From a virus, in the IMG/VR virus record IMGVR_UViG_3300022413_000352, positions 1 through 64,000 of that record: a stretch of 64,000 nucleotides of DNA; one strand, given 5' to 3'. The translations under genes and the position numbers were made by a program. Shown here in pieces: positions 1 through 59,295 of the stretch (position 1 is the stretch's first letter; every line of letters begins with the position of its first letter). Below the pieces are notes generated by a model. That model was given only the letters and a program-made list of their open reading frames with translations. It ran no database searches and was not told where the DNA came from.

Positions 1-189
1 TCAGAGTGCCAAGGGTGAGCGTAGAATCAGCCGTAATCGGTAACGTGCCAGTGGCTGAAGTCGTCAGAGTGCCAAGGGTGATCGTAGAATCAGCCGTAAT
101 CGGTAACGTGCCAGTGGCTGAAGTCGTCAGAGTGCCAAGGGTGATCGTAGAATCAGCCGTAATCGGTAACGTGCCAGTGGCTGAAGTCG
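1..189. repeat. Three tandem 63-bp repeats
   Basis: Copies begin at about 1, 64 and 127. The copy nearest the left edge differs by one base (GAGCG for GATCG), changing Ile to Leu in the encoded repeat. A fourth, diverged unit follows at 190-250. The unit is a multiple of three, so copy number can change without breaking the frame. More copies may lie beyond the edge. Confidence 0.9.
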
Positions 190-2749: not shown

Positions 2750-3106
2750 CTATGGTAACGTATACTCAACCGATAATCGAAACTTAACATTGATTGGTAT
2801 CAGCTTGAGAGGCTCACTTCGACTACTCAGACGTGTATCGGTTGACGCCTCTACCGCGACCCACCTGTCATCCTTGTCCACAGCCATATCCTCAAACGTA
2901 ATCCGGGTCAGCACCAGCTCGGCTCGTTCGGTTAGACTGTCCACATCTGGCCCCACAAAGACGCGATACTTCACCACTTCATCTGGCGGGATGGGCCGTC
3001 CGTCTATCAACGTGGTAGACGGATTCCATGTCAGTGTTTGGGCTGCAACAGTACTGGCTACAAGCCCCGCGATAAGTAGCAGTATAATCGATTTCAAATT
3101 ACGCAT
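2750..3106 (-). CDS. Secreted fibronectin type III-like protein
   Basis: This 118-residue protein has an N-terminal Sec signal peptide (MRNLKSIILLLIAGLVASTVAA, then QTLTW). The remainder looks like a single FN3/Ig-like domain: a T-W-N strand, 'YRVFVG', and a terminal '..EPLKLIPINVKFRLSVEYTLP'. The start overlaps the stop of the preceding gene (ATGCGTAA), which argues for this ATG over a longer frame without a signal peptide. Similar small secreted FN3-like proteins occur at 27469-27894 and 27902-28294. A phage gene with an export signal here is unusual. Function is unknown; binding at the cell surface is a guess. Confidence 0.65.
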   Translation of the reverse strand: MRNLKSIILLLIAGLVASTVAAQTLTWNPSTTLIDGRPIPPDEVVKYRVFVGPDVDSLTERAELVLTRITFEDMAVDKDDRWVAVEASTDTRLSSRSEPLKLIPINVKFRLSVEYTLP

Positions 3107-43175: not shown

Positions 43176-43359
43176 TACTATCGATTTGGGATATGCGATT
43201 GTTGTTGCGGGTGCTATTAGCCTTGGGATGTCTATTGCGTTAACGGCATTTGCCGCAGTGTCTATCGTGTTCAGATTAGGCATCGGGATTATCATGGGGC
43301 TGATCGTTTTGCGCCTCTTAGAAGCGATTGCAGCGGGAGACGTCCATGGACTTATTTGA
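43162..43359 (+). CDS. Small two-helix membrane protein of the T4SS cluster
   Basis: A 65-residue protein with two hydrophobic helices (LGYAIVVAGAISLGMSIALTAFAAVSIVF and GIGIIMGLIVLRLLEAIAA). It overlaps both neighbours and so is coupled between TraL and TraE. A homologue in known systems was not recognised; it could be an extra pilin-like or scaffold subunit. Confidence 0.55.
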   Translation: MNLFNTIDLGYAIVVAGAISLGMSIALTAFAAVSIVFRLGIGIIMGLIVLRLLEAIAAGDVHGLI

Positions 43360-44011
43360 CACGTCTGCACCCCGTGAACATGCTAGAGCAATAGTGCTTA
43401 TATTTGCGCTAGTGCTCAGTATTGCAGGTAACGTCGTATCAGTCTTCTGGTACGGCGGTAAGACGATTCACTATATCCCGGTGACGTCAACGGGTGAAGT
43501 GGGCGCGATGCAAACCAGTCGTCCAGGTGAATTCCCGGTATCCATTCAACGCAACGTGGCAGAGCTAGTCGTCCTTACACTGGGCAACACGACGTCAGAT
43601 AGCCTGATGGCGTCAATCCAAACGGTGCGCCCTTACCTTAGTCCTGCAACTTACACCGCGTTACATGCTCAAGGGACATCCGAAGTAAGCCCTATGCAAA
43701 CCGCTGATATCTCAATCATGACGACTGATCTCAAGCTAGAAAACGTCGCTCCGGTTGGCTTGCTTAGGCGGTTTCGGTTTAGCGCCATGCGTCGTATGTA
43801 TAGCTACGGTATGGCGCTCGATCCTCACCCAGTAACGGTTGTTGTTGACGTTATGCCGCCGCAGGTGGGCACAGGGCTCGCAAGCTCATTGCAGGTATCT
43901 CATATCGCGTGGCCAGAACTGAAAATCAAGGATGGCAGCTTTCAAGATTTCAGTTTTACCGAACAATTAATCAATGCACATGTGCCATTTAGACGCGGAG
44001 TAACAAAGTGA
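43346..44011 (+). CDS. TraE/VirB8-like T4SS protein
   Basis: A 221-residue protein with a cytoplasmic start, one N-terminal membrane segment (AIVLIFALVLSIAGNVVSVFWY) and a periplasmic domain. Its 'VAELVVLTLGNTTSDSLMASIQTVRPYLSPATYTAL' resembles TraE of F-type systems. The order L-(small)-E-K-B matches F plasmid order. It should form part of the inner membrane complex. GGGAG precedes the ATG at 43346. Confidence 0.75.
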   Translation: MDLFDTSAPREHARAIVLIFALVLSIAGNVVSVFWYGGKTIHYIPVTSTGEVGAMQTSRPGEFPVSIQRNVAELVVLTLGNTTSDSLMASIQTVRPYLSPATYTALHAQGTSEVSPMQTADISIMTTDLKLENVAPVGLLRRFRFSAMRRMYSYGMALDPHPVTVVVDVMPPQVGTGLASSLQVSHIAWPELKIKDGSFQDFSFTEQLINAHVPFRRGVTK

Positions 44012-44748
44012 TAAAACGCGGAGGGTTAGCAGCTCTTTTTCTGTGCATACTCACTACGACTCTATCCGCTCATGAAATCGAAGTGATGTATGATCGCCAA
44101 GACGCCGTTAAAGTTGCCGTTCACTATAAGAAAATGACAACGATCGCCTTTTGGGATGTGGTCGCCAACGTGAGCACTACGATACCAGCAACGACGTTAG
44201 ATATTCGCAAAGACGAGTTGTTCCCACATACGATTACCCTGTCCAATCTGAAAAAAAAGACGACTGGCACGGTATACGTAACGCTCGCTAGCGGGGTTGT
44301 GGTTCATATCGACATCCGGTACTGGGGTAGGATCACTCAGAAAGTTATTGTCAAAGACGCCCGTACAGAAGCTCAGAAGGCTGTACAACAAGCCAAAGCC
44401 AAAACCGGCATGACGATAGACGAGCGCACTCTTCGGACACTGTGGGCTGTCCAGTGGGGCCTGAAGACGGATACGAGCGTACAAGTCACCAAACAAAGCC
44501 AACTACTCAACCGTAACGATCACCGTGAGGTCGTTTTGACCACAAGATACCAGACGGTGGGGTTTACTGGTTTTACTCAGTCTATCCACAACCGATCGTC
44601 TGAGCCAATCCAGATACACCCGGCAACCGTTACAACCGATTGTGATCTATTCAGTGTGAGCGTCGAAGGCGCGTATACGGTGCAGCCAGGACAACGGGCT
44701 GTGGTTCACATCGTATGCAAGGGAGCCACTCATGCCACGTTTCGCTGA
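44008..44748 (+). CDS. TraK/VirB9-like outer-membrane complex protein
   Basis: A 246-residue protein with a signal peptide (MIKRGGLAALFLCILTTTLSA). An N-terminal secretin-like beta domain follows (PHTITLSNLKKKTTGTVYVTLASGVVVHIDIRYWG), then 'IVKDARTEAQKAVQQAKAKTG'. The C-terminal beta part (TRYQTVGFTGFTQSIHNRSSEPIQI...) suits a TraK-like fold. Its ATG overlaps the TraE stop, and its end overlaps TraB by 17 bases. It is expected to build the outer-membrane channel with TraB and TraV. Confidence 0.75.
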   Translation: MIKRGGLAALFLCILTTTLSAHEIEVMYDRQDAVKVAVHYKKMTTIAFWDVVANVSTTIPATTLDIRKDELFPHTITLSNLKKKTTGTVYVTLASGVVVHIDIRYWGRITQKVIVKDARTEAQKAVQQAKAKTGMTIDERTLRTLWAVQWGLKTDTSVQVTKQSQLLNRNDHREVVLTTRYQTVGFTGFTQSIHNRSSEPIQIHPATVTTDCDLFSVSVEGAYTVQPGQRAVVHIVCKGATHATFR

Positions 44749-45871
44749 GGCTTTCCTAAGGCTACTTTCTCACTGGATCACAGTTGTTGTCGGTATCGTG
44801 GTGATTACAGCAGCCGTGTTTGTCTATAACCGATCTGCTCAGAGCCAGGATACAACACCCTTAGCAACCTATCACACCGGTGGGTTGGCACCCAGTGAAG
44901 ACGCCGGTATTTTGGGCGGGATAGCGGCTCAACAACAAAAAACGGACGTGCTGACACGGCAACTACACGACATGAAAGCGAAGCTAGAGCAACTTGAGCG
45001 CAAACCCGATCCCCCATCGAACACTAAAGCGAATCAGTTGTTGCGGGAACAACTCAGAGCACTACAAGCCCAAGTCGCGCAAAACAACGCGCTTCGCAAT
45101 AGGTCTACCCCGGCGCAGCTACCCCCTCAACCTCCGCCTGTTTCTGTGAGGGTTATTCAGGGTTCCCGCGCAGGCGTCACAGTGTCTAACCGGATTCAAG
45201 TAGCTGGAAATCGCGCTGCATCACCCACAGCACCTGCACCGTACTTACCCCCACAATCGTTTGCTAGGGGGCGCGTTAAGGATGGCTATACTGGACTCGC
45301 CAGTATCGAAACTTTCCCGGTGACGATTGAGGTAACATCCGCATTTAATGCGCCAAACGGGCACACTGTCCCACTCACGGGCTGCCGGTTTGGCGCGACT
45401 TCGACGCCTGAAGAACTGACGGCACGCGGGCGCTTAGCCCTAACCCGGATCACCTGCGTCAATGCCAACGGGATCACCATTGAACGTCCGATTTCAGGCT
45501 ATGTGACAGCCGCTGACAATATCAACGGACAGATTGCGCAAGTCTTTTGGCACGAGAGAGAAGTGGTGGCGGCATTCGCTAAGAGTGCGGTTCCGGCTGC
45601 TCTGGTCTCTCTCTTTAAAGAAACCCGCCGAGTGGTGGATGTTGCGACGCTTACTGGCGTTCTGGTGCAGTCGAGCAACACCGTAGCTCAAGAAGTGGCG
45701 GGGCGGATGGCGGATATCTACTTAGATAAGGCTGAGAAACTGGCGTCACCCATTATCTGGGTAGCGCCTGACACACCCATTTACATTTACATCACGCAAG
45801 GGGCACGGCTTGATGGGCTTCAAACAATCGAACCCACACGTGAGCCACTAGCCCGGAGGATTTTGAAATGA
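44732..45871 (+). CDS. TraB/VirB10-like channel scaffold protein
   Basis: A 379-residue protein with an N-terminal membrane segment (HWITVVVGIVVITAAVFVYN), a coiled coil (LTRQLHDMKAKLEQLERKPD...LREQLRALQAQVAQNN) and a Pro-rich stretch (PAQLPPQPPPVSV). A C-terminal VirB10-type barrel follows (IEVTSAFNAPNGHTVPLTGCRFGATS... YIYITQGARLDGLQ). The architecture is the energy-transducing scaffold that links the inner and outer membranes. The lengths and order match F-type TraB. Confidence 0.85.
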   Translation: MPRFAEAFLRLLSHWITVVVGIVVITAAVFVYNRSAQSQDTTPLATYHTGGLAPSEDAGILGGIAAQQQKTDVLTRQLHDMKAKLEQLERKPDPPSNTKANQLLREQLRALQAQVAQNNALRNRSTPAQLPPQPPPVSVRVIQGSRAGVTVSNRIQVAGNRAASPTAPAPYLPPQSFARGRVKDGYTGLASIETFPVTIEVTSAFNAPNGHTVPLTGCRFGATSTPEELTARGRLALTRITCVNANGITIERPISGYVTAADNINGQIAQVFWHEREVVAAFAKSAVPAALVSLFKETRRVVDVATLTGVLVQSSNTVAQEVAGRMADIYLDKAEKLASPIIWVAPDTPIYIYITQGARLDGLQTIEPTREPLARRILK

Positions 45872-46329
45872 TACGGTATCTGATTCTCATTCTAGGCGTA
45901 CTCGCTTTAATGCCAGCTTGTGCCAAGTACAATACTCATCTTGGGCGGGTGAATCACGACAACAGCCCATTCACGTCGTCACAACAGGGCGCTGCAAGCG
46001 TGTCGTACGGCGGTGCGCCTATCAATATCGTGCCCCAATTGGTTTTGCCCATTACTCGTACTGTTTGGATCAAAGGGCATCGACGCCCGAATGGCGATTA
46101 CGTAGGTGATTACCCCCTGACAATCGTATTTACACAGGGGCAATTTGAGCACGTACAGAAACAGAACCCAGTCATTCCGCAATCTATTTCACTAGCTGAT
46201 GGTTACCACGAACCAGGCAAGGCAATAACGGATCGCCTACCGACTATGACGTTACCTACAGGTGCCCAGTTACAGGGTGTCATTGAAGCCACCAAATCGC
46301 GATTAGGGGCTGCCAATGATACCAAGTAA
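45868..46329 (+). CDS. TraV-like lipoprotein
   Basis: A 153-residue protein with a lipoprotein signal ending in LMPAC (Cys18). TraV is the outer membrane lipoprotein of F-type T4SSs and forms the pore with TraK and TraB. The gene order here is TraB-TraV-TraC. Similarity beyond the lipobox, size and position is weak, so the name is from context. It overlaps the preceding and following genes by a few bases. Confidence 0.65.
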   Translation: MIRYLILILGVLALMPACAKYNTHLGRVNHDNSPFTSSQQGAASVSYGGAPINIVPQLVLPITRTVWIKGHRRPNGDYVGDYPLTIVFTQGQFEHVQKQNPVIPQSISLADGYHEPGKAITDRLPTMTLPTGAQLQGVIEATKSRLGAANDTK

Positions 46330-48742
46330 TATGTTGCTACCCTATGGCACGATGCTGGACGACAAAGGTATTGTGTTGCTTCACAGACCTGCTAAGTTTG
46401 GACCGCTTAGCCGATTTGCCTTAGGTTGTGTGTTTGAGGTAACGCCCCTGGATATCGATCTACTTTCAGAAAGCGAAGTGGAACGAGCAGCGGCAGACGT
46501 CAAAGCGCTTATCTTAAACTTGAAGCCGTCGGCAATCCTAGACGTACGGTTGGATATGCGCCCCATTACGAACGTTCCGGCATGGGACAAGGCTCACGAA
46601 ACGCAGCATGATCCCGATACACAGCTTGTGCGTGAGCACATTGCCAATGGGATGCCCCACACGCCAGGCGCTAGCCCGATGCGGCTTACTGAGTGTAAAG
46701 TGACGATTGGCTACCGCTACCCTCTTAAAGGCAATACCCGGCAGATACGCCAAATCTTAGACGTCCTAGCTCAGATTAAACCGTGGGGTAATGCGGCAGC
46801 GGCAACGGTATTGAAAGAGCGCCTAGAAGCCGAGTTTAACGAACAGCTTGTGGCGTTTGAATCCACAGTTACCGGTATCGAGAGATCCTTGCGCCTATTG
46901 GATCTTACCCCGGTTCGACTGGATGGTACTGGGCTTATCAGTGCACTCAACCGGGCGGCGGGGCCAGATGCGACAGCGCCCACTGTGTACGACCCGGATA
47001 TGAGTATTGGTGAGCAAATACATGTACCGTACGATCTGGGTGATACAACTATAAAAACGGTCAATCATACCGCTACCGTCTACACGTTAGAGCGCAGTGC
47101 AGCCGATGCGTTTGCTGGCATTCTGGGCGCATGTCGCACGCCTGAGGTAAATGTACACGGGTTGCCACTCGGTGAATTGGGTACACCGCTCTCCATTGCA
47201 GTGACAATCATGGTTAAGGATCAAGCCAGGAAGCGTACCACGTTATCGCTCAAGCACAGTCTAGCAAACTTGCTCAAGGTGGGTGGGCTGGGTGAAGAAC
47301 GGAAAGACGCTGAACAGCAAGTAGACGCTCTCGGTGAACTCATTGCAGCCATGGCAGACGGTAGTGAGCAAGTACACGACGCGATGGTAAGTGCAGTGCT
47401 GTGGACCCGAAATGGTGAGACCCTCACTGATAGTCTATTTCAGAAAATGTCGTTGGACATGGCGATACACTGGTATAAAGAGCCGTTTATCGCCAGCACG
47501 TTATTCTTACGTGGTTTACCGATTGGGTGTGATCCCGGCTTTCCAAATGAAAACTTCGTGCGTCGCTCACGTCAGATTGCGACTCGTACACTTGCCCGCT
47601 TAGTGCCGCTGTGGGGCGCATTCCAGGGAAGCCGAACCCCAACCGCGCTTTATGTGAACCGTCGCGGCGAGCCTGTGTTCTTTGATTTGTTCGATCGCAC
47701 GGGTACCCCTCATATGACGATTGTGGGCAAGTCCCGGCGGGGAAAGTCAGCTTTTCTCAATACCTATATTAATCAGATTAGCCCGGACGACTACCTCGTC
47801 TATATTCTTGATCGATATGGCTCATACGACGAAATGGCACGCCGTCGAAAGGGTAAGCTGGTTAAGTTTAACGCCACAACTCCAATTTGTATTGGTCCTA
47901 TGGAAGGCGCTTTAGACGCACGCCACTGTCAGCATATGGCAATGATTATTGAAGAAATGGCAATGGCAGGCTTTCAGGATCAACACGTAAGCCCGGACGA
48001 ACGAACGCTGATTGGTAATTACATTCAAGACTGGGCGCTCAAGGGGCCGACAGCTCAAACCATGTCTGACTTTGTGGCGTACTTAGGCAGCAATGGTGAT
48101 ACATTTGCCAGACAGCTACAACTACTACTAGGTCCGTATATCAAGGATGGACGGTATGCCCCGTTTATCGACGGACCCAATCAATTGGGCATTGCCGACA
48201 GCTCGTTTTGGGTAGCGGATATCGCCGGATTAGAGGACTTTCCCGAACTACAGTCGATCATTATCGCATCTCTATTTACCTCACTTGAGCGGCATATCAC
48301 AAACTCGGATCTAATGAATATCCGTAAAATTCTCGCAGCCGATGAGGTGTCTTTCCTGATACGCAACCCACAGGCGGCAGAGTTCTTGCGCAAGTTGGCT
48401 GTTGCTCTGGCGCGGTTTTTTGCGTCGTTTGTCCTGATCTCACAATCGATGAGTGATTTTTTAACCGATCTGGGATCAGCCGCTGTAAAGATGAGTGATA
48501 CCCATATCTTTTTTAACCTTGGACGACAAGAGCTTCATGAAATATCCGAAGTTTTTAAGCTGTCGGAGCACACGGCTGACTCAATTGTAAGCCTGCGTAA
48601 ATATGAGGATTGTTCAGAGTGTGTCATCCGCTTTGAAGAAGGTGAAGGCGGTGCGGGAATCATTCGCGTGGTACCGCCACCCGAGTTTATCCAAGCCATA
48701 GGGCAATCTGAAGCCCATAGAGCGGCCAGAGGAGTTGTCTGA
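46316..48742 (+). CDS. TraC/VirB4-type secretion ATPase
   Basis: An 808-residue protein. Walker A is 'IVGKSRRGKSAF' (about residue 470) and Walker B 'ILAADEVSFLI' (about 673), with 'LDRYGSYDEMARRRKGK' between them. The N-terminal half has the TraC-type region (ALDVRLD..., RQIRQILDVLAQIKPWG) and the C-terminal part the usual sensor stretch (LISQSMSDFLTDLG...AVKMSDTHIFFNLG). It powers pilus assembly and substrate transfer at the inner membrane. Length matches F TraC. Confidence 0.9.
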   Translation: MIPSNMLLPYGTMLDDKGIVLLHRPAKFGPLSRFALGCVFEVTPLDIDLLSESEVERAAADVKALILNLKPSAILDVRLDMRPITNVPAWDKAHETQHDPDTQLVREHIANGMPHTPGASPMRLTECKVTIGYRYPLKGNTRQIRQILDVLAQIKPWGNAAAATVLKERLEAEFNEQLVAFESTVTGIERSLRLLDLTPVRLDGTGLISALNRAAGPDATAPTVYDPDMSIGEQIHVPYDLGDTTIKTVNHTATVYTLERSAADAFAGILGACRTPEVNVHGLPLGELGTPLSIAVTIMVKDQARKRTTLSLKHSLANLLKVGGLGEERKDAEQQVDALGELIAAMADGSEQVHDAMVSAVLWTRNGETLTDSLFQKMSLDMAIHWYKEPFIASTLFLRGLPIGCDPGFPNENFVRRSRQIATRTLARLVPLWGAFQGSRTPTALYVNRRGEPVFFDLFDRTGTPHMTIVGKSRRGKSAFLNTYINQISPDDYLVYILDRYGSYDEMARRRKGKLVKFNATTPICIGPMEGALDARHCQHMAMIIEEMAMAGFQDQHVSPDERTLIGNYIQDWALKGPTAQTMSDFVAYLGSNGDTFARQLQLLLGPYIKDGRYAPFIDGPNQLGIADSSFWVADIAGLEDFPELQSIIIASLFTSLERHITNSDLMNIRKILAADEVSFLIRNPQAAEFLRKLAVALARFFASFVLISQSMSDFLTDLGSAAVKMSDTHIFFNLGRQELHEISEVFKLSEHTADSIVSLRKYEDCSECVIRFEEGEGGAGIIRVVPPPEFIQAIGQSEAHRAARGVV

Positions 48743-49992
48743 TGCACCGCACTGTTATTGCGCTCATTCTGTTAGCTCTCAGCGCTCATGCCGTGGTTGC
48801 TCAAACCATATTCGAGGAAGGGCTTAACGCCAACCTATCAGGCATAAGCGTGACACACAATCCCAATTACTTCAGGGGATCGCTAAACTTCGACCCGATC
48901 CTACCCCCAAACCGCACCACATTATTTCGCGGGCGGGCAGAGTCCGGTGATTTTTGTAACTTCGATTTAGTGGCGACGATGTTCCAAGAATTCGCTGAGC
49001 TGCCCGGTTTGCTGATTGAGCTGTTGCCGCTGATTATTGCGGGGATCGGCATCCACTTTCTATGCGCCACGTTCCCAGAGCAGTGCTCGTTGATGAAGGA
49101 TATTAAGAACTACGCCAATCTCGTTTTACGGTTTCAACGGGCTAGTTGTAATGAAGTAGTCGAGTCTGCGATGTATGGCGGAGTTGAGGCGAGTAACAGT
49201 GCCCTGGGCGAATGTTTCCGTGACGCCGCCCCAGGCGAATCAAGTCAAGCGGTATGGCGTCGCTGTCGTGAAGATCGCGGCGGCTTTATCCCACTACCAA
49301 ATGGCGGTAGAGGAACGGAAGTTGACGTGATTGCCATAATTCTAGAAACGGCTGGCGTTCCCCCTGAAGATGCAGCTCGAATCCAAGGGTATACGGGATC
49401 ATTTACGATCTTCTCCCAGGGTAACGTTTTCTCAACCGCGAAGACTGCCCCAACAGAGTCGGCAATCACTTACTATGCTGCTCGAAAAGAGGAATTTGCC
49501 GAGACGGTGGCTGAATTGGTGTCGGATGCCGTAGGTGGCAATCAACCGTCTGCTGAGCAACTCGCGGGGGTATCCGTTCCTGGTACGCCGTTACCTGTGG
49601 CAGCAATCGACTCTATAGCGGGTGAGCGCAACGCCACGATGCGAGCCTATAAATCTCAGGCATTAGCAGCACAACTGGCACTGGCTAGGTCCAAGTGGGA
49701 CTTGACTGAGGACTTGCACAAGCTTGAGAAAGCGATACAGGCTTCTGAGATCACGCCGGATCAAGCCAAAGTAGCGCACTTGGCACTCGCCAACTTTAAG
49801 CATGAGATTAACCGGTTAGAAGAGCTAAAAAAGATCGTCGATGAGCACTACCGCCCGGCTGTCGAAGGCTTGCTAGAAGCACGGGCGAATCAATTGCTAG
49901 AGGCGACGATCGCATCTGCACAGGTTCAGCCAACGCAGAATTCCGCCAGCCGTTATCCGGATGGTCAAACCTCATTCGGTTACTCACAATAG
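48742..49992 (+). CDS. TraH/PFL_4711-like periplasmic T4SS protein
   Basis: A 416-residue protein with a signal peptide (MHRTVIALILLALSAHAVVA). A 'SGDFCNFDLVATMFQEFAELPGLLIELLPLIIAGIGIHF' stretch and Cys pairs (CSLMKDI, ASCNEVV, ECFRDA, RRCREDRGG) recall TraH and the related PFL_4711 family of integrative elements. The C-terminal half is helical (LTEDLHKLEKAIQASEITPDQAKVAHLAL). The ATG overlaps the TraC stop. In F, TraH helps pilus assembly and retraction. Identity is moderate and based on pattern and place. Confidence 0.55.
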   Translation: MHRTVIALILLALSAHAVVAQTIFEEGLNANLSGISVTHNPNYFRGSLNFDPILPPNRTTLFRGRAESGDFCNFDLVATMFQEFAELPGLLIELLPLIIAGIGIHFLCATFPEQCSLMKDIKNYANLVLRFQRASCNEVVESAMYGGVEASNSALGECFRDAAPGESSQAVWRRCREDRGGFIPLPNGGRGTEVDVIAIILETAGVPPEDAARIQGYTGSFTIFSQGNVFSTAKTAPTESAITYYAARKEEFAETVAELVSDAVGGNQPSAEQLAGVSVPGTPLPVAAIDSIAGERNATMRAYKSQALAAQLALARSKWDLTEDLHKLEKAIQASEITPDQAKVAHLALANFKHEINRLEELKKIVDEHYRPAVEGLLEARANQLLEATIASAQVQPTQNSASRYPDGQTSFGYSQ

Positions 49993-50001
49993 GTTAACAC
50001 T

Positions 50002-50442
50002 ATGTTTATATTCCCGTTAACCCTATCAGAGGCAAGCGGCACCTTCGTTGGGCTGGAAGCCCAGGCACTGATTCGTTCAGCCCTTGGACCTGCACCGGCC
50101 CTAGTAATCTTATCGGGTGCGGCATTTATCGGGCTTGGAATGATACGGGGGCACCGTCGGCTAGTTGATCTTGCGTTTTATCTGTTCGCCAGTTTACTCA
50201 CGCTCTCTTTGATATGGCCCGCATCGTCTTCCGTTTCCCCCTCAGATGTGCAATCACAAGCAGCGTCAGGGCAAGCCATTCAAGACGCATCGGGTTTGCT
50301 ACCAGGGCGAGCGGGGTTACAAATTCCAAGGGTAGAGGTGGAATTGCTGCGGGCCATATCGGGTATGTGGGTAAACGTTGCCAGAGCAATTAACAGCGAC
50401 GGGGATCGCCCCTTCAGTGAAGTTGCCCGATCTCGTGGTTGA
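50002..50442 (+). CDS. TraG_N/VirB6-like protein, N-terminal part
   Basis: A 146-residue protein with hydrophobic segments (PAPALVILSGAAFIGLGMIR, VDLAFYLFASLLTLSLIWP). The C-terminal half (RVEVELLRAISGMWVNVARAINS) continues in sense into the next gene, which starts within its stop codon. Together they resemble the N-terminal membrane domain of TraG/VirB6-like proteins. The split into two frames appears genuine because both halves have starts, and coupling is by TGATG. Confidence 0.6.
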   Translation: MFIFPLTLSEASGTFVGLEAQALIRSALGPAPALVILSGAAFIGLGMIRGHRRLVDLAFYLFASLLTLSLIWPASSSVSPSDVQSQAASGQAIQDASGLLPGRAGLQIPRVEVELLRAISGMWVNVARAINSDGDRPFSEVARSRG

Positions 50443-51395
50443 TGCGTCAAGGCTTGTCTGGGGAGGCAACGGCACTTATTCGGGAATGGACATCAGCGTG
50501 CGTGATGCCAGCTCGCAAACGACTCTTAGACAGAGGCGGCGGTGCCAACTCAGAAGAGTTGCTGCCGTTCCCTGGTAGCGCCTTGCATGGCGTCATGGGC
50601 GATATCACCGTGCAAATGGGCAATGACTTTATCCTGTGTGGTCCCCAATCGGATGTGATCATGACGGTGGCGAGAACTGAAGTCGAAGGATTCTTGTCAC
50701 CCGGCGGAAACAGTATGAGCCAGATATGGTCATCAGAGCTTAGTATTGCCCCGGCTGAAGTGGTGAAGTTTCTCATCATGCGGGAGGTAAGAAGAGCCAG
50801 TGGGCCAGAAATACAACCCGTATCATTAACGGGGCTCTATGCGACCATGCGTGTCATCACATCGATGAGCGGCGGGATCAAGGATGCAGCGATCGGCACA
50901 TTAAATTTACAAGGCGGCGATGTCTTAGCTGGATTAGGTAGCGCGTTGACAGGTGGGGTATCGAGTGCCGTATCTGATCTCGCGGTTTCAGTCCAGGCTC
51001 TAGTTGGAAAAGCACTATTTGTCACTAAGTTTAGCAGTGACATTGTGGGCGTTTTGCAGGCGGTGATCTTGGCTGTTTTCCCATTTGTGGCGCTAGTGGC
51101 TCTAACCCCCGGCAAGCATATCCTTACACTGGTTTCCTACGTTTATTTGCTTGTGGCGATTTACTCAATGCCGTTTGCATGGGCACTTGTAGATCTGCTC
51201 TCTGATATCGCGCTGTCGCAAGCTGGTAGCCTTACCCTTGTTACGAACCCAGTAGTAACCCTTGAAGCAATGGCATCCGCGTTAATCATTGTTACGATAG
51301 GGACTTGGGTTGCCCTGTTCGGTTTAGCGTTTGCGATTCTACTGCCTATTGCTGGCGGGGCTTCTATGGTAATTCGTGGTGCAAGAGGAGTGTAA
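50442..51395 (+). CDS. TraG_N/VirB6-like inner membrane protein, main part
   Basis: A 317-residue protein. The N-terminal portion (EATALIREWTSACVMPARKRLLDRGG) has the TraG_N-type W...CV.PA pattern. Several hydrophobic helices follow (VVGVLQAVILAVFPFVALVALTPGKHILTLVSYVYLLVAIYSMPFAW, MASALIIVTIGTWVALFGLAFAILLPIAG). This is the mating-channel/VirB6-type component. Its ATG overlaps the previous stop. Unlike F TraG, the large periplasmic C-terminal domain is absent. Confidence 0.65.
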   Translation: MRQGLSGEATALIREWTSACVMPARKRLLDRGGGANSEELLPFPGSALHGVMGDITVQMGNDFILCGPQSDVIMTVARTEVEGFLSPGGNSMSQIWSSELSIAPAEVVKFLIMREVRRASGPEIQPVSLTGLYATMRVITSMSGGIKDAAIGTLNLQGGDVLAGLGSALTGGVSSAVSDLAVSVQALVGKALFVTKFSSDIVGVLQAVILAVFPFVALVALTPGKHILTLVSYVYLLVAIYSMPFAWALVDLLSDIALSQAGSLTLVTNPVVTLEAMASALIIVTIGTWVALFGLAFAILLPIAGGASMVIRGARGV

Positions 51396-51397
51396 AA

Positions 51398-51793
51398 ATG
51401 TTGGAACAAAAAACATTCTACGATAAGAATCACACGGCATGGTTGAACCGCCCCGGACCCGCTAGAGGATTCCCATTATGGTGGTTATTTATCTATGCGT
51501 TCATTCCCGGACAAGTGATCCGCCTGCTACTCAGTCAACCGTTCTGGGTTGGATTGGCGATTTCATCTGTTGTAGCGCTCGCCCTGCTGGTGGTTTGCGC
51601 GTATGTCAGTTTCGCGTGGCGTGTCAACCAAACGTGCCCCGAATGCCAAACTACGAAAACGAGAGGATATACACGATGTTCAGGTTGTGGTTACCCGTCT
51701 TCATGGTCGTCGGATTCGTCACAGCCGCAGACGCGCAAGAGTCCTGTGTATTCGCTGGACACGCGATCCCGTGCACGGTTGAAACGAGTGTAA
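51398..51793 (+). CDS. Membrane protein with zinc ribbon
   Basis: A 131-residue protein, MLEQKTFYDKNHTAWLNRPGPARGF, with two membrane segments (FPLWWLFIYAFIPGQVIRLLL, VGLAISSVVALALLVVCAYV). A CPECQ...CSGCGYP zinc ribbon follows at residues about 80-100. Its last 118 bases overlap the following gene in a different frame. The ribbon lies at the start of that overlap, so the tail is probably real. Role in the T4SS is not known. Confidence 0.55.
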   Translation: MLEQKTFYDKNHTAWLNRPGPARGFPLWWLFIYAFIPGQVIRLLLSQPFWVGLAISSVVALALLVVCAYVSFAWRVNQTCPECQTTKTRGYTRCSGCGYPSSWSSDSSQPQTRKSPVYSLDTRSRARLKRV

Positions 51794-52164
51794 CCACAGG
51801 CGAATCGATTACCCTTGAGCCGATCACTAAAACGGATTGGCAATTCCTTGAGCGTGATATGGCTCGCGACGCCACAGCCTTACACGCTGAACTTTTGAAC
51901 AACACAACGTTAGAGAATGCCAAACGCTATGCGCTATCTGAGATTTACCGACAATACAGGGGCATGCAAGCCATGAAGCTAGCCACCTACGTCCGGGCTC
52001 AGATCATGGCGCAAATGCGGGCTAAGTACGGCGATCTCGATGAGCTTGGGTTGATTGAAGCGGCAGTAATTGAGTCCGGAATGCCCGTTATCAGTGTCCC
52101 CGATTTGGTAAAGACGCTGAAGCCTGGTGATCTCATGCGCGCAGGAGTGCCCAATGGTCAGTAG
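51676..52164 (+). CDS. Exported hypothetical protein in the T4SS cluster
   Basis: A 162-residue protein with a signal peptide (MFRLWLPVFMVVGFVTAADA) and a helical mature domain (RDMARDATALHAELLNNTTLENAKRYALSEIYRQYRGMQAMKLATYVRAQIMAQM). GAGG precedes the ATG. It may be a periplasmic partner of the channel; no family was recognised. It overlaps the upstream zinc-ribbon gene by 118 bases and the transglycosylase by 11. Confidence 0.55.
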   Translation: MFRLWLPVFMVVGFVTAADAQESCVFAGHAIPCTVETSVTTGESITLEPITKTDWQFLERDMARDATALHAELLNNTTLENAKRYALSEIYRQYRGMQAMKLATYVRAQIMAQMRAKYGDLDELGLIEAAVIESGMPVISVPDLVKTLKPGDLMRAGVPNGQ

Positions 52165-52594
52165 CTATGTGATAGCCGCGCTCTTAGCTAGCACGTGTCC
52201 AACCGTACCGCATGAACTTGTCCACGCCATTGTAGCAGTTGAATCCTCAGGCGATCCCTACGTGCTGAATGTTGGCGTTGGGAGTACCTGGAAAGCGTAT
52301 CGCTTCGATGACATTGACGATGCAAAGGTGTTTTTACAGGCGGCGTTGCAAGTTACTCAAAACGTCGATATCGGGTTGATGCAAGTGAATTGGAAGTGGT
52401 GGGGTAAACATATTGGAGTTACGGCTAGCGAGTTACTCGACGTACCCACGAACCTGCGGGTGGGGTGCGATATCCTCAGTCGGGAATTAGCGGGTAAGGG
52501 TCCATTGTGGCAAAGGATTGGGCGTTACCATAGCCGTACGCCATGGCGGAATGAACAGTATGCGTTAAAGGTGATTCATGAGACGATCCGCTAG
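52154..52594 (+). CDS. VirB1-like lytic transglycosylase
   Basis: A 146-residue enzyme. 'HAIVAVESSGDPYVLNV' holds the catalytic Glu of the SLT family (ES.G.p), and 'DIGLMQVNWKWW' the second SLT motif. A weak N-terminal export signal (MVSSYVIAALLASTC) is present. It should open the peptidoglycan for T4SS assembly. AGGAG precedes the ATG at 52154. The same protein could in principle also serve the phage during entry or exit. Confidence 0.85.
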   Translation: MVSSYVIAALLASTCPTVPHELVHAIVAVESSGDPYVLNVGVGSTWKAYRFDDIDDAKVFLQAALQVTQNVDIGLMQVNWKWWGKHIGVTASELLDVPTNLRVGCDILSRELAGKGPLWQRIGRYHSRTPWRNEQYALKVIHETIR

Positions 52595-53558
52595 TCTGTT
52601 AACCCTGATACTGTGCCTATCCAGTAACGCATATGCTCAGTTGGACTTCACCACGCTGATTAATCCCGCGTGTGCTGACTTCAAAGTGTTGGGCAGTTGC
52701 TCTTGTACCAATGTCCTACAGTTTGACCAGGTTTGCACCCGTGTGTCTTACCATCAGCCAAAACTACTTATTGAGACGGTTCCAATCCCCGGTGATACCT
52801 ATTTAGGCGGCATCCTTTCGCCCGCATTGCTTGTCGGACTTGTGACAGCTGGCGAAGCTCTGGCGTTTGCCGGTGGATCGGGTGCTGCACCGCTTGACTC
52901 TGGGCACAACCAACTGAGCTTTAGAGAAGCCCATGTATTCACAATCCCGCCAATCTTCCCGTATGGGTGTAACGCTTGTGATGAACAAGGTGAGCCAGAG
53001 CCGACTACCGTCACCTTAAACTACGCATCCGAATTGGACTTTCCAAACTGGCGTTATTTACCTGACGGAATCGCTCAACCACTGCCAATCGCTGGCTTAT
53101 CTCTCGCCGGTGTTTGGGGTAGTTTGTACCCACGGACGGGTAAATCAGCCCACGATAGTCCCCCGGTTGCTGCTGCATTAATGGCATGGCGAGCTGCAAC
53201 AATCGCCTACAACCCAGCGCCAGGACCAGGAGGTATTGTACCTCATACAGTCCTCCAACCCGCTATTGGCATTCCCCCTGTCTGCTTTCAGTGCGCTAAG
53301 CCAACGCTTTCCAAGTGTGGATTGGTAGGAATGAACCCGTTGCACTGGCAGCTTGAGAAAGTTGAACCACGGGGGCGCAACGTTTTCATTCTATGGGAAA
53401 GGCGCATTTGCTGTGTCGATCCATCCACGGCAGCATGCGGGCTTGCAGGGCTTGCGGTAACTGGTGGGGGTGCTGATAATTTTTGTGACATTCCATATGA
53501 CCCCGTATTCGGTATTGTCCCCGGTATGCCCATAGATATCCCATTCGATGGGCACTAA
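52578..53558 (+). CDS. TraU/PFL_4710-like exported T4SS protein
   Basis: A 326-residue protein with a signal peptide (MRRSASLLTLILCLSSNAYA). The 'INPACADFKVLGSCSCTNVLQFDQVCTRVSYHQPKLLIETVP' stretch resembles the Cys-rich start of TraU and of the TIGR03756/PFL_4710 family (P.C..w.v.G.C......f.C.v..sv...hP). Many further Cys pairs (GCNACDEQG, PPVCFQCAKP, RRICCVDP) suggest disulfide-rich folding. TraU-type proteins are needed for DNA transfer in F-like systems. Moderate confidence in identity. Confidence 0.65.
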   Translation: MRRSASLLTLILCLSSNAYAQLDFTTLINPACADFKVLGSCSCTNVLQFDQVCTRVSYHQPKLLIETVPIPGDTYLGGILSPALLVGLVTAGEALAFAGGSGAAPLDSGHNQLSFREAHVFTIPPIFPYGCNACDEQGEPEPTTVTLNYASELDFPNWRYLPDGIAQPLPIAGLSLAGVWGSLYPRTGKSAHDSPPVAAALMAWRAATIAYNPAPGPGGIVPHTVLQPAIGIPPVCFQCAKPTLSKCGLVGMNPLHWQLEKVEPRGRNVFILWERRICCVDPSTAACGLAGLAVTGGGADNFCDIPYDPVFGIVPGMPIDIPFDGH

Positions 53559-53901
53559 TGTGAACCCAATACAAGCCATATTCACAGAGAAATACAGCCA
53601 CCTAGTAGCTCTCTCAGGCGCACGACTCACGCTGCTTATCCCTTACCTGTGGTTCTTGTTACTTGTGGTTATCGTCGGTGGATACGAGGGCAATGACTGG
53701 CGCAGACAACGACTTTATGCGGGCTACTACCGCTTGATCTTAGCCACTGCCACCATACTCTTTGTGGGTATGCTAGTCGCACTCGGAGCATGGTTAATTA
53801 TGCCCAGTCTGATGCAGCCACACATAACAGCCATTGGCTTAGCTGTAATCGGGTTTGCACTCGGTTGGACAGCAATGGCTGGGCGTCCGGTAATGAGGTA
53901 A
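53548..53901 (+). CDS. Small membrane protein upstream of the coupling protein
   Basis: A 117-residue protein with three hydrophobic segments (LTLLIPYLWFLLLVVIVGGY, LILATATILFVGMLVALGAWLIM, ITAIGLAVIGFALGWTAM) and a basic loop (GNDWRRQRLYAGYY). It starts inside the TraU-like gene by 11 bases and ends three bases before the VirD4 gene. A partner or membrane anchor of the coupling protein is possible; no family was recognised. Confidence 0.55.
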   Translation: MGTNVNPIQAIFTEKYSHLVALSGARLTLLIPYLWFLLLVVIVGGYEGNDWRRQRLYAGYYRLILATATILFVGMLVALGAWLIMPSLMQPHITAIGLAVIGFALGWTAMAGRPVMR

Positions 53902-53903
53902 AA

Positions 53904-55691
53904 ATGTCCATTACAATCCCGTTTCCCAATCGTCAACTGTTAATCGAGTTTGGCTTTATCATTGCAGTGTGTGCGATCGCATTCATAGTTGTACTGCCGA
54001 TGCTCGATGTCTTTCCTTACGGACATGCATTCTTCATTGCTTGGCTATTCTGGAGAGCACACTGGGTCGCTAAACAACTACTGATGCGCGGTAGCTGGAT
54101 GAACCCGCAATCAGCCAAACCGTTACCCGTTAAACCCAACCCAAATGGCATTGTACTCGGCGATGGTTTTACTTGGACAGGTGACCACGTGGACGCTATT
54201 CAGCGCTATGTGCATGTCGCCAAATCGCTACCACAAGATGATGGTAAGCGCGGTGGATCGCCTGCGATTCACGGCTGCGGTTCTCACCGCGATCGCTCAG
54301 TCATTTTGCCCTATGAACGGCTGCGTAGTCACGTGGCTATTGAGGGCTCAACCCAGAGCGGAAAGACGGTGCTACTCGCCAACATGATTAGCCAAGCCAT
54401 TGCGATTAACCAGGGTGCGGTAGTTATCATGGATCCAAAAGGTAGCGATCAGCTCTACTACACGGCAAAGGCAATGGCTGAACGCTGTGGGCGCAAGTTC
54501 GCGTTAATTCGCCCGCGAACACCCTTGCTTAGTTCTCGGTTTAACGTGTTATCGTCATGCGAGGAAGCTGTTGATATGCCGGGGCGGTTGCGCCCGATCT
54601 TCCCTGAAGGCCGTGAAGCGTATTTCAAGGAAGAACCGTTATCCATTTGGCTGAGAGTCGCTGCTATGCACAAGGCGCTGGGGATCACATGGGATATTCG
54701 CGATATCCATAACGCCGTGATGGATTTAGACACGCTACGCTGGACACTGGCGCAGTATATGGCGCTCAAAGGCATTGGCTTTAGAGGATTACGCCGTACA
54801 GATATGCCCGACGTTGATATGCTGAAAAATAAGTATGTCGAGATGGGAAAAGACGATCCGTTAATTCCCGGTATTCTGCGGCCGCTAACCCGTAAACAAG
54901 AAACTCATCAAGAGCGCTGCGGCAACTTAGACGTCGCGCTTAGTGGTGTGGTGGACATCGAGCACGCTGAAATATTTGGAGCACAAGACGCACTCACTTG
55001 GCGGGACATTGACGAGGGCAACATGGTTGTAATCTTTCGCACCGATTCACTCGTCACCCAACAGATCGGGCGCAACATCGCGTCTCTGTTCTTCCAGGAT
55101 TTCATGGGCTATATGGGGCTGCGGTACCTCACGAGCGGAACCAGTCGTATTCCAATTACAATGTTCGTTGATGAAGTTGGCGAGATCGTTTATCCCGACT
55201 TTCGGCAAGCAATCAATAAGGTGGGTGAGGCCGGTGGGCGTCTTATCCTCACATGGCAAACTAAATCCGATCTGGATGCCACGCTTGGGAAGTTCCAGGC
55301 GGATGTGATCCGGGCGAATTGTCAATCGCGGATCACCATGCGGATTGCGGATGATGAGACCGCCGATATTCTATCGAGACAATCACCTAAAGTTCGAGTA
55401 ACTCGGCTTACAGGTAACCGATCCATGTTGATGGGATCAAACTCTGGTAAGGGTATATCTGTCGAGCACGAGGATGTGCCTCTACTCGAAGCAAACATTT
55501 TACAAGGGCAACAGGTAGGGCAAGGATTCTTCAGATTAGATGGATCGCTATTCCATTTTAATATTCCATTTTCTGAAAGTGAGGTACCCAATGACTCAAC
55601 GCCTACTAATAGTTTTAGTTACTCTATTTGTACTCAGTGCTTGCAGTGGCTCAGGTGGTTTGGACGATCAAGACTTTCCTCAAACTCGTGA
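53904..55691 (+). CDS. VirD4/TraD-type coupling ATPase
   Basis: A 595-residue protein with N-terminal membrane segments (FGFIIAVCAIAFIVVLPML, FFIAWLFWRAHWVAKQLL). Walker A is 'VAIEGSTQSGKTVLLA' (about residue 147), followed by VIMDPKGSDQLYY, and Walker B is 'TMFVDEVGEIV' (about 417). The C-terminal part has 'RLILTWQTKSDLDATLGKFQADVIRANCQSRITMRIADDET'. These are the T4CP hallmarks. It should bring DNA or protein substrates to the T4SS, implying substrate transfer and not only pilus formation. GAGGTAAAA precedes the ATG. The end overlaps the lipoprotein gene by 101 bases. Confidence 0.9.
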   Translation: MSITIPFPNRQLLIEFGFIIAVCAIAFIVVLPMLDVFPYGHAFFIAWLFWRAHWVAKQLLMRGSWMNPQSAKPLPVKPNPNGIVLGDGFTWTGDHVDAIQRYVHVAKSLPQDDGKRGGSPAIHGCGSHRDRSVILPYERLRSHVAIEGSTQSGKTVLLANMISQAIAINQGAVVIMDPKGSDQLYYTAKAMAERCGRKFALIRPRTPLLSSRFNVLSSCEEAVDMPGRLRPIFPEGREAYFKEEPLSIWLRVAAMHKALGITWDIRDIHNAVMDLDTLRWTLAQYMALKGIGFRGLRRTDMPDVDMLKNKYVEMGKDDPLIPGILRPLTRKQETHQERCGNLDVALSGVVDIEHAEIFGAQDALTWRDIDEGNMVVIFRTDSLVTQQIGRNIASLFFQDFMGYMGLRYLTSGTSRIPITMFVDEVGEIVYPDFRQAINKVGEAGGRLILTWQTKSDLDATLGKFQADVIRANCQSRITMRIADDETADILSRQSPKVRVTRLTGNRSMLMGSNSGKGISVEHEDVPLLEANILQGQQVGQGFFRLDGSLFHFNIPFSESEVPNDSTPTNSFSYSICTQCLQWLRWFGRSRLSSNS

Positions 55692-55986
55692 GCAAGAGTT
55701 TGCTGAGGAAGCGCTGTTTCGTGCGCTGGATCGGGTTGAAGTAAGTTGCGAAGTTGTAAGCTGTCACGGTGATGGAATTCATACAGAAGTGGTTGATCTT
55801 GTTTTCAACAATATCAATGCGACGTGCCAGCAACGCTGCATGCGAGTCGAAGTCGCCGGAGAAGAGCCGCGACACTATTATGCATGGTTGGTGTGGCGGC
55901 GGATTCCAAATACCTGCTACCACGCTGAAAAGTATGAGGTTCTGTTGATGAAAGAAGTACCTGTAATCTGTGTCGAAACACACTGA
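55591..55986 (+). CDS. Lipoprotein at the end of the T4SS cluster
   Basis: A 131-residue protein with a lipoprotein signal (MTQRLLIVLVTLFVLSAC). The mature part has paired Cys (SCEVVSC, TCQQRC) and a 'YYAWLVWRR' motif, then ends near VICVE. The lipoprotein at 36883-37263 shares this order, which points to duplication. It may be a VirB7-type, entry-exclusion or superinfection-exclusion lipoprotein; none of these is proven. It overlaps the coupling protein gene and ends nine bases from the convergent phage gene. Confidence 0.6.
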   Translation: MTQRLLIVLVTLFVLSACSGSGGLDDQDFPQTREQEFAEEALFRALDRVEVSCEVVSCHGDGIHTEVVDLVFNNINATCQQRCMRVEVAGEEPRHYYAWLVWRRIPNTCYHAEKYEVLLMKEVPVICVETH

Positions 55987-57076: not shown

Positions 57077-58237
57077 TTAGCTAGTCGGATAAACCCTCAC
57101 GGCCATTTTCTCGTTGAGGACTTTCACGCCGTAGAAAACATCGAGGACCATAACCTCACGACTGAGAGCGCCGTCCAGGTATCGCCACGCTCTTACCGAC
57201 ATGCCTGACTGAGGATCTACAGCGGTAAAACTATTTGCCGCTACAGACGGTCCTGGAAGGTTAGCGAAAGCGATCGCCATACTATGTTCGTGGAACATGA
57301 GCGAGTTCAGACGACCGGCTGTATCCACGTAGTCCGTAAACGTAACAACCGGATCGCCAGTCGTAGCCACTGCCAGAGGTGGACTGAACGTAATAGTAAG
57401 GGAAGTGGTTGCAACGGTGGCGTCAGCCGTTAGCACGTAGCGCGTTGTATCACCTGCGATTGCGAAGTTGTCACCCTTTTTAAACGCTTGGGTATCCGTC
57501 ATGGCAGCCACAACCATAGTGGTCGCTCCTGCCGCCGTGTCCGGTGCTGTTCCAGCCACATCACCGCCACCGCTACCAGTCCCGGGGGTAAATGTCGGTA
57601 CTTGTTGGCTACTGAAAACCTCAGTATTGAAACGAGTGCCCAGAGTACCACGCATCAACGGACCTGTTGCAGCCGCACCCGCGTTGTTCTGGCTTGACCA
57701 AAACGGCGCTTTGAGCATGGAAGCTTCCATTTGGGAATCGATCATGTAATGGAAACGACCGGGCTCGTCGATATCCACCGCGTTATCGCGAAGGATTTTA
57801 CGGGGCAGTAGAATCTCATCTTCATCGATATTCGCTGAGGCGTAACCGTGAACGTAGGGAATATCAAGATAGAGATCGCGTAGTGAGGTATCGATTGCCA
57901 AACCCAACGCATAAGCCGCAGGAGCGATATGATCTTGAATCACTGACTCGCCCGTGATCGCTAATTCGTTATGAGGCACGGCAAACCGCACTTCTTTAAA
58001 CTGATCGATTACAATATTGATCGAACTCGGCGTGAGATCAACCACGCTGCCAGGGGCGGATTGCGCTGTGAACGTTCCGGGCTTGCGAATCTGGATCGTA
58101 TCGCCAAGATTGACCGCACGACGTTCGAGGTCATAACCACGATGCACACGCGCTGCCATGCCTAAAACATTACGTAAATGTCTTAGAGATTCCATGGCGT
58201 AGAATATAGGATTATAGGGCGAAATTGTATTTGCCAT
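57077..58237 (-). CDS. Major capsid protein (P22 coat-like)
   Basis: A 386-residue protein, MANTISPYNPIFYAMESLRHLRNVLGMAARVHRGYDLERRAVNLGDTIQIRKPGTFTAQ. The layout matches P22-type coat proteins: an N-terminal helix, 'GDTI.IRkPg.f', an E-loop-like region, and 'AVPHNELAITGESVIQDHIAPAAYALG'. A Gly/Ala/Thr-rich insert (PGTGSGGGDVAGTAPDTAAGAT) lies in the middle. It forms the HK97-fold capsid lattice, with the scaffold gene directly upstream. The leader carries three related hairpins. Confidence 0.8.
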   Translation of the reverse strand: MANTISPYNPIFYAMESLRHLRNVLGMAARVHRGYDLERRAVNLGDTIQIRKPGTFTAQSAPGSVVDLTPSSINIVIDQFKEVRFAVPHNELAITGESVIQDHIAPAAYALGLAIDTSLRDLYLDIPYVHGYASANIDEDEILLPRKILRDNAVDIDEPGRFHYMIDSQMEASMLKAPFWSSQNNAGAAATGPLMRGTLGTRFNTEVFSSQQVPTFTPGTGSGGGDVAGTAPDTAAGATTMVVAAMTDTQAFKKGDNFAIAGDTTRYVLTADATVATTSLTITFSPPLAVATTGDPVVTFTDYVDTAGRLNSLMFHEHSMAIAFANLPGPSVAANSFTAVDPQSGMSVRAWRYLDGALSREVMVLDVFYGVKVLNEKMAVRVYPTS

Positions 58238-58272
58238 GAGGGCACCTATGCGGTTTAGTGATTGAATATAAC

Positions 58273-58387
58273 CAGCTTACGGACACCGCGCTGATAGTGT
58301 CTGAAAATCGGCCTATCCACGGACACCGCGATAGGTGTGGACTGAACGGACGGTGGAACAACTGGGGTCACGGACACCGCAACCCCA
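58273..58387 (-). promoter_or_regulatory. Three hairpins with an identical apical motif in the capsid gene leader
   Basis: On the minus strand the 11-mer GCGGTGTCCGT occurs three times (plus-strand 58279-58289, 58319-58329, 58370-58380). Each copy is enclosed by a different stem: GCTG/CAGC (58273-58276 with 58290-58293), CCTATC/GATAGG (58312-58335) and TGGGGT/ACCCCA (58363-58387). The motif can itself fold as CGG-TGT-CCG. Different stems around one loop show that pairing is conserved while sequence is not. The stems extend with G-U pairs only on the minus strand, matching the capsid message. Confidence 0.75.
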
Positions 58388-58443
58388 ATCGTTGAAAATC
58401 CCACCTTAACTATATTTTACTCAAACGTTGTAATTATATCAAC

Positions 58444-59295
58444 TTAGCCGTTTGGCATGGCGATATTCACTTCGCCAGACATGACCCGATCCCGGACTTG
58501 CTCGTAGTCTGCAAGATTGCCAACCTGCTCACCTGGAATCGTCCAGGTGCCAGATGAGTCAAGGTGACCATTCTGGACGCTGCCTGAACCAACCGATTCC
58601 TTCAGTGACCAGGGCGACGATGAAACAAAGTTGGCGACGTATTCCTCCATACTGATCCGCTCTTGGTCTTTGCCATATAAGGGCATCTCACCCTCGTATG
58701 CGTTTGGCTTCATATCGTCGCCCTCGATACGCCAGGGCTTAGCCAGAGAGCCAACCAGATGATCCACCAACTCATCACGCACATGTTGTTTGTGTAACTC
58801 GTTCGCCAGCCGCTCATTGATACTCAACTCGGCATGTTTACTCATAAGCGACTCATAGCGAGAGTCCTTCTGCTGACTTGCTTGGTTTGCGGCTTCAAGT
58901 CGGTGCTCAAGATCGGCGATCGCGTTCCGGTATTTCATCTCAGCGGCTTCGGCGTGTTTGCCTTCGGATAAAAGCCGCTCTTGCTCAAGCTGATCTTTCT
59001 GAGCCCGCAGAGCCTCAAGCTCGCCCATCGCTTCCCGTGCTTTATCGGGATCGATACCGTCAAACCCAGCCATCTTGTCTTGATACCCCTTCAGCTCACC
59101 CTGCATCTGATCAATACGCCGCTGCCGGGCGGCACGTTCCGCTTTTTCGTTACTCAATACGTTATTCAGTTTGTCGATGTCGGTATACTGATCACTGAGC
59201 CGGACTACCCCAGACGTACCGTTAACAAACTCATACATCTCACGAAAGGGCTCAGGGACTTGGTCAAGGCTATCGAATTGTTCTGGTAGTGCCAT
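58444..59295 (-). CDS. Capsid scaffolding protein
   Basis: A 283-residue acidic, helical protein. The central coiled coil runs over about residues 45-160 (NVLSNEKAERAARQRRIDQMQGELKGYQDKM; ALRAQKDQLEQERLLSEGKHAEAAEMKYRNAIADLEHRLEAANQ). Conserved-looking 'VVRLSDQYTDIDKLN' starts it. Between the MuF-like and capsid genes, this is the standard scaffold position. It directs capsid assembly and is lost or cleaved later. GAGG precedes the ATG. Confidence 0.8.
   Translation of the reverse strand: MALPEQFDSLDQVPEPFREMYEFVNGTSGVVRLSDQYTDIDKLNNVLSNEKAERAARQRRIDQMQGELKGYQDKMAGFDGIDPDKAREAMGELEALRAQKDQLEQERLLSEGKHAEAAEMKYRNAIADLEHRLEAANQASQQKDSRYESLMSKHAELSINERLANELHKQHVRDELVDHLVGSLAKPWRIEGDDMKPNAYEGEMPLYGKDQERISMEEYVANFVSSSPWSLKESVGSGSVQNGHLDSSGTWTIPGEQVGNLADYEQVRDRVMSGEVNIAMPNG

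Follow-up and report, generated by a model that had tools for sequence, protein, structure and literature searches.

Three hairpins with one shared tip in a phage capsid leader: a probable protein-binding RNA operator and similar arrays in related phages

The leader of the major capsid gene in the window (the whole 64,000-nucleotide stretch analysed, positions 1 to 64,000 of the 66,902-base IMG/VR virus record IMGVR_UViG_3300022413_000352) carries three hairpins that present one common tip on different stems. We put at roughly 0.6 the probability that they act in the capsid mRNA leader as an array of protein-binding RNA operators controlling capsid translation, with the scaffold protein as its probable reader. 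Judged from the sequence, the array is most likely an undescribed RNA switch tuning the amount of shell protein; no published description of such arrays was found in the open-access literature. Arrays of small hairpins before scaffold or capsid genes are present in many related phages, with differing loops. On a broader proposal, they would belong to a widespread, so far undescribed class of RNA operators for head assembly in tailed DNA phages; each phage's own scaffold would read them and so provide feedback on the scaffold-to-coat ratio, and the loops (UGU, GNGAN, ACGG/AUGN and others) would have been rewritten repeatedly as scaffold and RNA co-evolved. We give this proposal about even odds.

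The array lies between a scaffold-type gene upstream (58444-59295, minus strand) and a P22-type major capsid gene downstream (57077-58237, minus strand; PF11651 at E=3e-17, phrog_283 at E=4e-55), which are 206 nt apart. As the sequence-only reading had noted, the 11-mer GCGGTGTCCGT appears three times before the capsid gene, with exact minus-strand matches at 58370-58380, 58319-58329 and 58279-58289 (spacing 51 and 40 bases). All copies in the 66.9-kb record are in this leader, an exact search having found 0 others. When folded in isolation, each copy gives a GCGG-UGU-CCGU tip, in which one pair is G-U, above a lower stem of its own with 6 to 11 pairs. Hairpin 1 (58359-58391, minus strand) is a continuous stem of 15 pairs including the G-U pair, with 0 nt of 3' bulge and a UGU triloop (MFE -23.2 kcal/mol, z -5.4). 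Hairpin 2 (58312-58335, minus strand) has a CCTATC/GATAGG stem and a 1-nt 3' bulge (-11.7 kcal/mol, z -2.1), and hairpin 3 (58271-58295, minus strand) an ATCAGC/GCTGGT stem and a 2-nt 3' bulge (-10.0 kcal/mol, z -2.2). When the flanks were shuffled with the 11-mers fixed, 0 of 50,000 shuffles equalled the 6, 6 and 4 Watson-Crick pairs seen in the window; the 216-nt leader as a whole was also more stable than its own shuffles (z=-3.2, with 1 shuffle in 200 equally stable). The earlier claim that every copy is enclosed in its own stem thus stands, but not in the form of simple perfect stems around an 11-nt loop, given the inner G-U stem and the 3' bulge. The second small inner stem that had been suggested proved to be part of the folded tip. 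Just upstream of the array, a promoter-like TTGATA-17-TAAAAT element (58414-58442, minus strand) with 10 of 12 matches, where 0.6 chance sites are expected in the region, weakly suggests a promoter.

The window leader had no covariance-model match in Rfam 15, even at E<=1, and no close relative carrying the 11-mer was found in the collections searched. Single-protein searches of IMG/VR with the window capsid and portal as queries likewise returned no close relatives, and paired 11-mers elsewhere occurred only in unrelated, repetitive sequence without matching stems. Among the capsid homologues, none carried the 11-mer without stems, the case that had been named as refuting a functional RNA. 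Since the window virus lacks a close relative, the evidence on stem covariation across genomes was taken from distant ones.

A capsid-protein alignment search yielded 80 virus loci at about 34-43% identity, which were reduced to 62 non-redundant loci for a blind census of hairpins, tallied by loop sequence over the 1 kb ahead of the capsid gene and compared with 20 shuffles. Read directly, the leaders of these capsid relatives show serial small hairpins before the scaffold gene. The census gave observed against expected counts of 13/0.7 for GGGAA, 11/0.65 for GGGAG, 10/0.2 for GGGAT, 4/0.05 for GTGAT and 6/1.0 for GCGAA; these GNGAN hairpins cluster at -1000 to -850 from the capsid start, that is, immediately before the scaffold gene, and are three per locus in 12 of the 62 loci and two in 7. 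Typical arrays consist of gggcGTGATgccc, gagcGTGATgctc and ggcGTGAAgcc (locus L148) or of gagcGGGAAgctc, cagcGGGATgctg and ggcGGGATgcc (L136), while L128 carries three GGGAY hairpins directly before the capsid gene. On the capsid tree, array loci are found in both main branches, which makes the design old; the window's own branch is long and uncertain. Among named bacterial genomes, a scan turned up 5 capsid relatives, one of them (L257) with a GGGAA array. At the gathering threshold, no Rfam 15 match was obtained in 11 relatives, nor in L236, L242, L129, L148 and L136, and four whole virus records held no other GNGAN array outside coding sequence.

Pairing in these relatives was assessed at sites picked by the heptamer CGNGANG and position only. 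At least 2 flanking pairs accompanied the heptamer at 55 of 77 leader sites against 87 of 951 elsewhere (p=1.6e-34), and at 20 of 45 against 50 of 553 in 51 further loci (p=5.6e-9); these p-values are overstated since related loci are not fully independent, which leaves the effect size unaffected. In 65 distinct hairpins not selected for pairing, 85.8% of cells pair, and the same hairpins contain 67 double changes against 22.6 in shuffles (0 of 500), with a covariation score of 0.605 compared to at most 0.23 when the partner was slid. The relatives share the window's architecture with other common loops and covarying stems, which upholds the original suggestion that the capsid leader contains a functional RNA, probably a regulatory site that binds a protein.

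The nearest match to the window is locus L129 (capsid about 42% identical), with three UGU-triloop hairpins before the capsid gene; its relative L259 has two UGG-triloop hairpins in that place, seen by eye only. A different loop marks the cultured Escherichia phages ChristophMerian and Seurat (both Queuovirinae) and Klebsiella phage K9PH25C2, which have ACGG hairpins before the scaffold and capsid genes, and their Pseudomonas, Vibrio and Providencia relatives have AUGN tetraloop hairpins in the same places. In a blind count of all 256 tetraloops over 14 genomes of Queuovirinae and their kin, ACGG and ATGG came to 11 each, ATGA to 7 and ATGT to 3, all others to at most 2; in Seurat, the leaders of the scaffold and capsid genes hold every ACGG hairpin with at least 5 pairs, three in all, and a fourth ACGG hairpin besides. 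Flyfo siphovirus Tbat2_3 (GGAU/GGAA) and Vibrio phage MAR10 (GGG triloop) also fit the design. Clustering by exact loop reached 0 of 300 shuffles for K9PH25C2 and Seurat and 1-5 of 300 for several others; this method gives per-genome significance only where loops are identical and misses most arrays since their loops are degenerate, and it missed the window because the stems are bulged. Overall, the loop is common within a genome and differs between lineages, whereas the stems are free to vary, a pattern expected if a trans-acting protein reads the loop. In the genomes checked, the arrays are confined or nearly confined to head-gene leaders.

Several other structures were seen in the same leaders. 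In L131 (about 3010-3060, i.e., -990 to -940 from the capsid start), and similarly in L144, an intrinsic terminator with the apical hairpin TACGGTGTCCGTA stands shortly before the GNGAA array; between these two loci, the inner hairpin of the terminator is kept and the outer stem differs. Conservation of the window tip as such found only partial support, since its recurrences, as the hairpin CGGTGTCCGT just before the GNGAA array of L131-L133 and L144, are inside the terminator. In Nanhaivirus-like phages including R5C (L150, L157, L162, L167, L176, L177, L187, L189, L192 and L193), the scaffold gene is preceded by a triloop hairpin, GGC-AGA-GCC, which lies at about -870 to -940 relative to the capsid start. 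Some phages of this group (L156, L165, L172 and L187) carry, ahead of the capsid gene, a long GCGCTCGTCG...CGACGAGCGC hairpin. The capsid leaders of L239, L240, L241 and L245 (Queuovirinae and kin) contain a long imperfect palindrome, e.g., GGCTCATGCTACATTGCGATCAATGTGGCATGAGCC, ahead of the capsid hairpins, which is possibly a promoter or regulator site.

The feature common to the array groups is the scaffold family, phrog_206/784, while the capsid family differs (phrog_283 vs phrog_247). With an array defined as at least two hairpins with one common loop and different stems in a scaffold or capsid leader, the window has a three-hairpin array in the capsid leader, next to a phrog_206/784-like scaffold. 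Queried alone, the window scaffold had no PHROG match, and compared with 12 phrog_206-type scaffolds it reached an hhalign probability of 98.8%. Its AF2 model is mostly coiled coil (pLDDT 78), has no recognisable RNA-binding fold and gave only chance coiled-coil matches in a fold search. No array was seen where a related capsid goes with another scaffold family (L224, L227, L228), nor in P22, albeit in a small sample, and two phrog_206 phages (L226 and L229) are also without one. Given this small sample and these two array-less phages, the scaffold is the favoured ligand by inference. Nothing pointed to the small zinc proteins that had been listed among candidate binders.

When the whole leader is folded, hairpins 2 and 3 have a competitor, an alternative pairing in which the left arm of hairpin 2, CACCTATCGCGGT (58325-58337, minus strand), forms 12 pairs with one bulged C to the putative capsid ribosome-binding region ACCGCATAGGTG (58243-58254, minus strand), recognised by its Shine-Dalgarno-like AGGTG. 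The fold with this region closed is predicted at -71.6 kcal/mol and that with three local hairpins and the region free at -69.4 kcal/mol, a gap of 2.2 kcal/mol that is within model error. The complementarity was matched in 7 of 150 shuffles in the window (p about 0.05); an analogous pairing in locus L129 is statistically stronger (0 of 150).

In the mechanism proposed for the array, a head-assembly protein, most likely the neighbouring scaffold, would read the common tip and thereby adjust translation of the capsid, or in other lineages of the scaffold or both, so that shell and scaffold would be kept in proportion. Several sites could make the response to free protein steep. In the window, the ribosome-binding region would be freed when hairpin 2 is held in its local form and closed when hairpin 2 is released; because the arm of hairpin 2 can pair alternatively with that region, activation of capsid translation is predicted. 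In some relatives, the last hairpin contains or abuts the Shine-Dalgarno sequence, as with the TGAC-GGGAG-GTCA hairpins before the ATG in L134, L140 and L204, and repression is predicted there instead. This direction of control, activating in the window and repressing in some relatives, is the least certain step of the mechanism.

The loops might also be read by a host RNA-binding protein, such as CsrA/RsmA, Hfq or a ribosomal-protein-like regulator, rather than by a phage protein. CsrA/RsmA targets and sponges (RsmZ, CsrB) are indeed built of several common-loop hairpins, some over a Shine-Dalgarno sequence, and require GGA in the loop; some GGGAN loops hold this GGA, and the last hairpin is often at the Shine-Dalgarno sequence. 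Nevertheless, GGA is absent from the window tip GCGGUGUCCGU and from most loop classes, including GTGAT, GCGAA, ACGG, AUGN and UGU, and CsrA was rejected on this ground as the reader even of the GGGAN loops. The specificity of a host protein should stay steady, yet the loop differs between related phages, including Queuovirinae of different gammaproteobacteria, and the arrays' confinement to head leaders also speaks against a host reader, which we regard as unlikely. About as improbable, if not slightly more so, are hairpins that serve as 5' stabilisers or RNase processing sites guarding abundant head-gene mRNAs with no specific ligand. Their stability when folded would suit such a role, as would a place ahead of genes that are among the most strongly expressed in phages, but the role would need stems rather than conserved loops, and here the loops are fixed and the stems variable, many of them with only 3-4 pairs and thus weak barriers.

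Transcription antitermination offers another parallel, as lambda/P22 boxB and HK022 put are likewise small phage hairpins, the boxB pentaloop, next to a boxA where early operons begin, being read by an N-type protein, and sites of this kind could bring a factor to RNA polymerase. GNGAN looks like a GNRA-like loop to which one base has been added, and the terminator with the CGGTGTCCG hairpin stands just before the array in L131 and L144. On the other hand, the loops are not known boxB loops, the sites are directly before scaffold or capsid start codons and not at operon starts, and no terminator was seen to follow in the window leader, which makes antitermination a doubtful explanation. An element acting in DNA (operator, cruciform or single-stranded promoter) is very unlikely: inverted repeats can be protein sites in DNA too, but a fixed asymmetric loop on variable stems is unlike a duplex DNA operator, and the loop motif stands on the leader's coding strand. 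Together with this strand and the position, an excess of G-U pairs over A-C mismatches (27 vs 14, p=0.06) favours RNA over DNA, the G-U excess only weakly. The promoters of the N4 virion RNA polymerase combine a conserved short fixed-stem hairpin with an N4-type virion polymerase; the stems are not conserved here, and no such polymerase was seen among the large ORFs scanned.

The operator reading has closer models in translational control. In RNA phages (MS2, PP7, Q-beta), a small hairpin near a gene start is bound by a capsid-related protein and controls translation. The arrays resemble these coat operators in having small hairpins near a gene start, but comprise two to four hairpins with lineage-specific loops in tailed DNA phages, and their ligand is a proposed one. 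The T4 proteins gp32, gp43 and RegA, with their autogenous operators, also bind leader RNA and control translation, at mostly single sites in replication genes, as opposed to repeated same-loop hairpins in head genes; a review is available (PMC3014915). Control of the scaffold-to-coat ratio in tailed phages is an old question. In P22, the scaffold protein was reportedly found decades ago, in work by King and Casjens, to limit its own synthesis after transcription, and we know of no mapped RNA site for this feedback. The gene order portal-scaffold-coat is alike, but in P22 gene 8 is preceded by 13 nt and gene 5 by none, so that there is no array.

If the scaffold reads the loops, the laboratory E. 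coli phages Seurat and ChristophMerian (a K-12 phage) would offer defined, mutable RNA sites, and across the lineages nature would have provided a series of RNA-protein pairs that differ in specificity. The arrays would then be a control layer in many environmental phages that was missed by Rfam and by the gene annotations examined here.

Apart from the array, the window encodes an F-type conjugation module (43328-55986, plus strand) with TrbI/TraB-like, TraC/TraG P-loop, TraG_N-like and TraU proteins and the coupling protein TraD, on a contig that also has the head and tail blocks of a siphophage. This combination suggests a conjugative phage-plasmid, a prophage in a conjugative element or a chimeric contig. 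The same repeat AGAATCAGCCGTAATCGGTAACGTGCCAGTGGCTGAAG is found at both record ends (window 1-60; record 66843-66902), which suggests a circular genome broken within a repeated gene. A 1604-aa protein (3531-8345, minus strand) with PASTA repeats, F5/8 type C and beta-helix domains is probably a receptor-binding tail protein.
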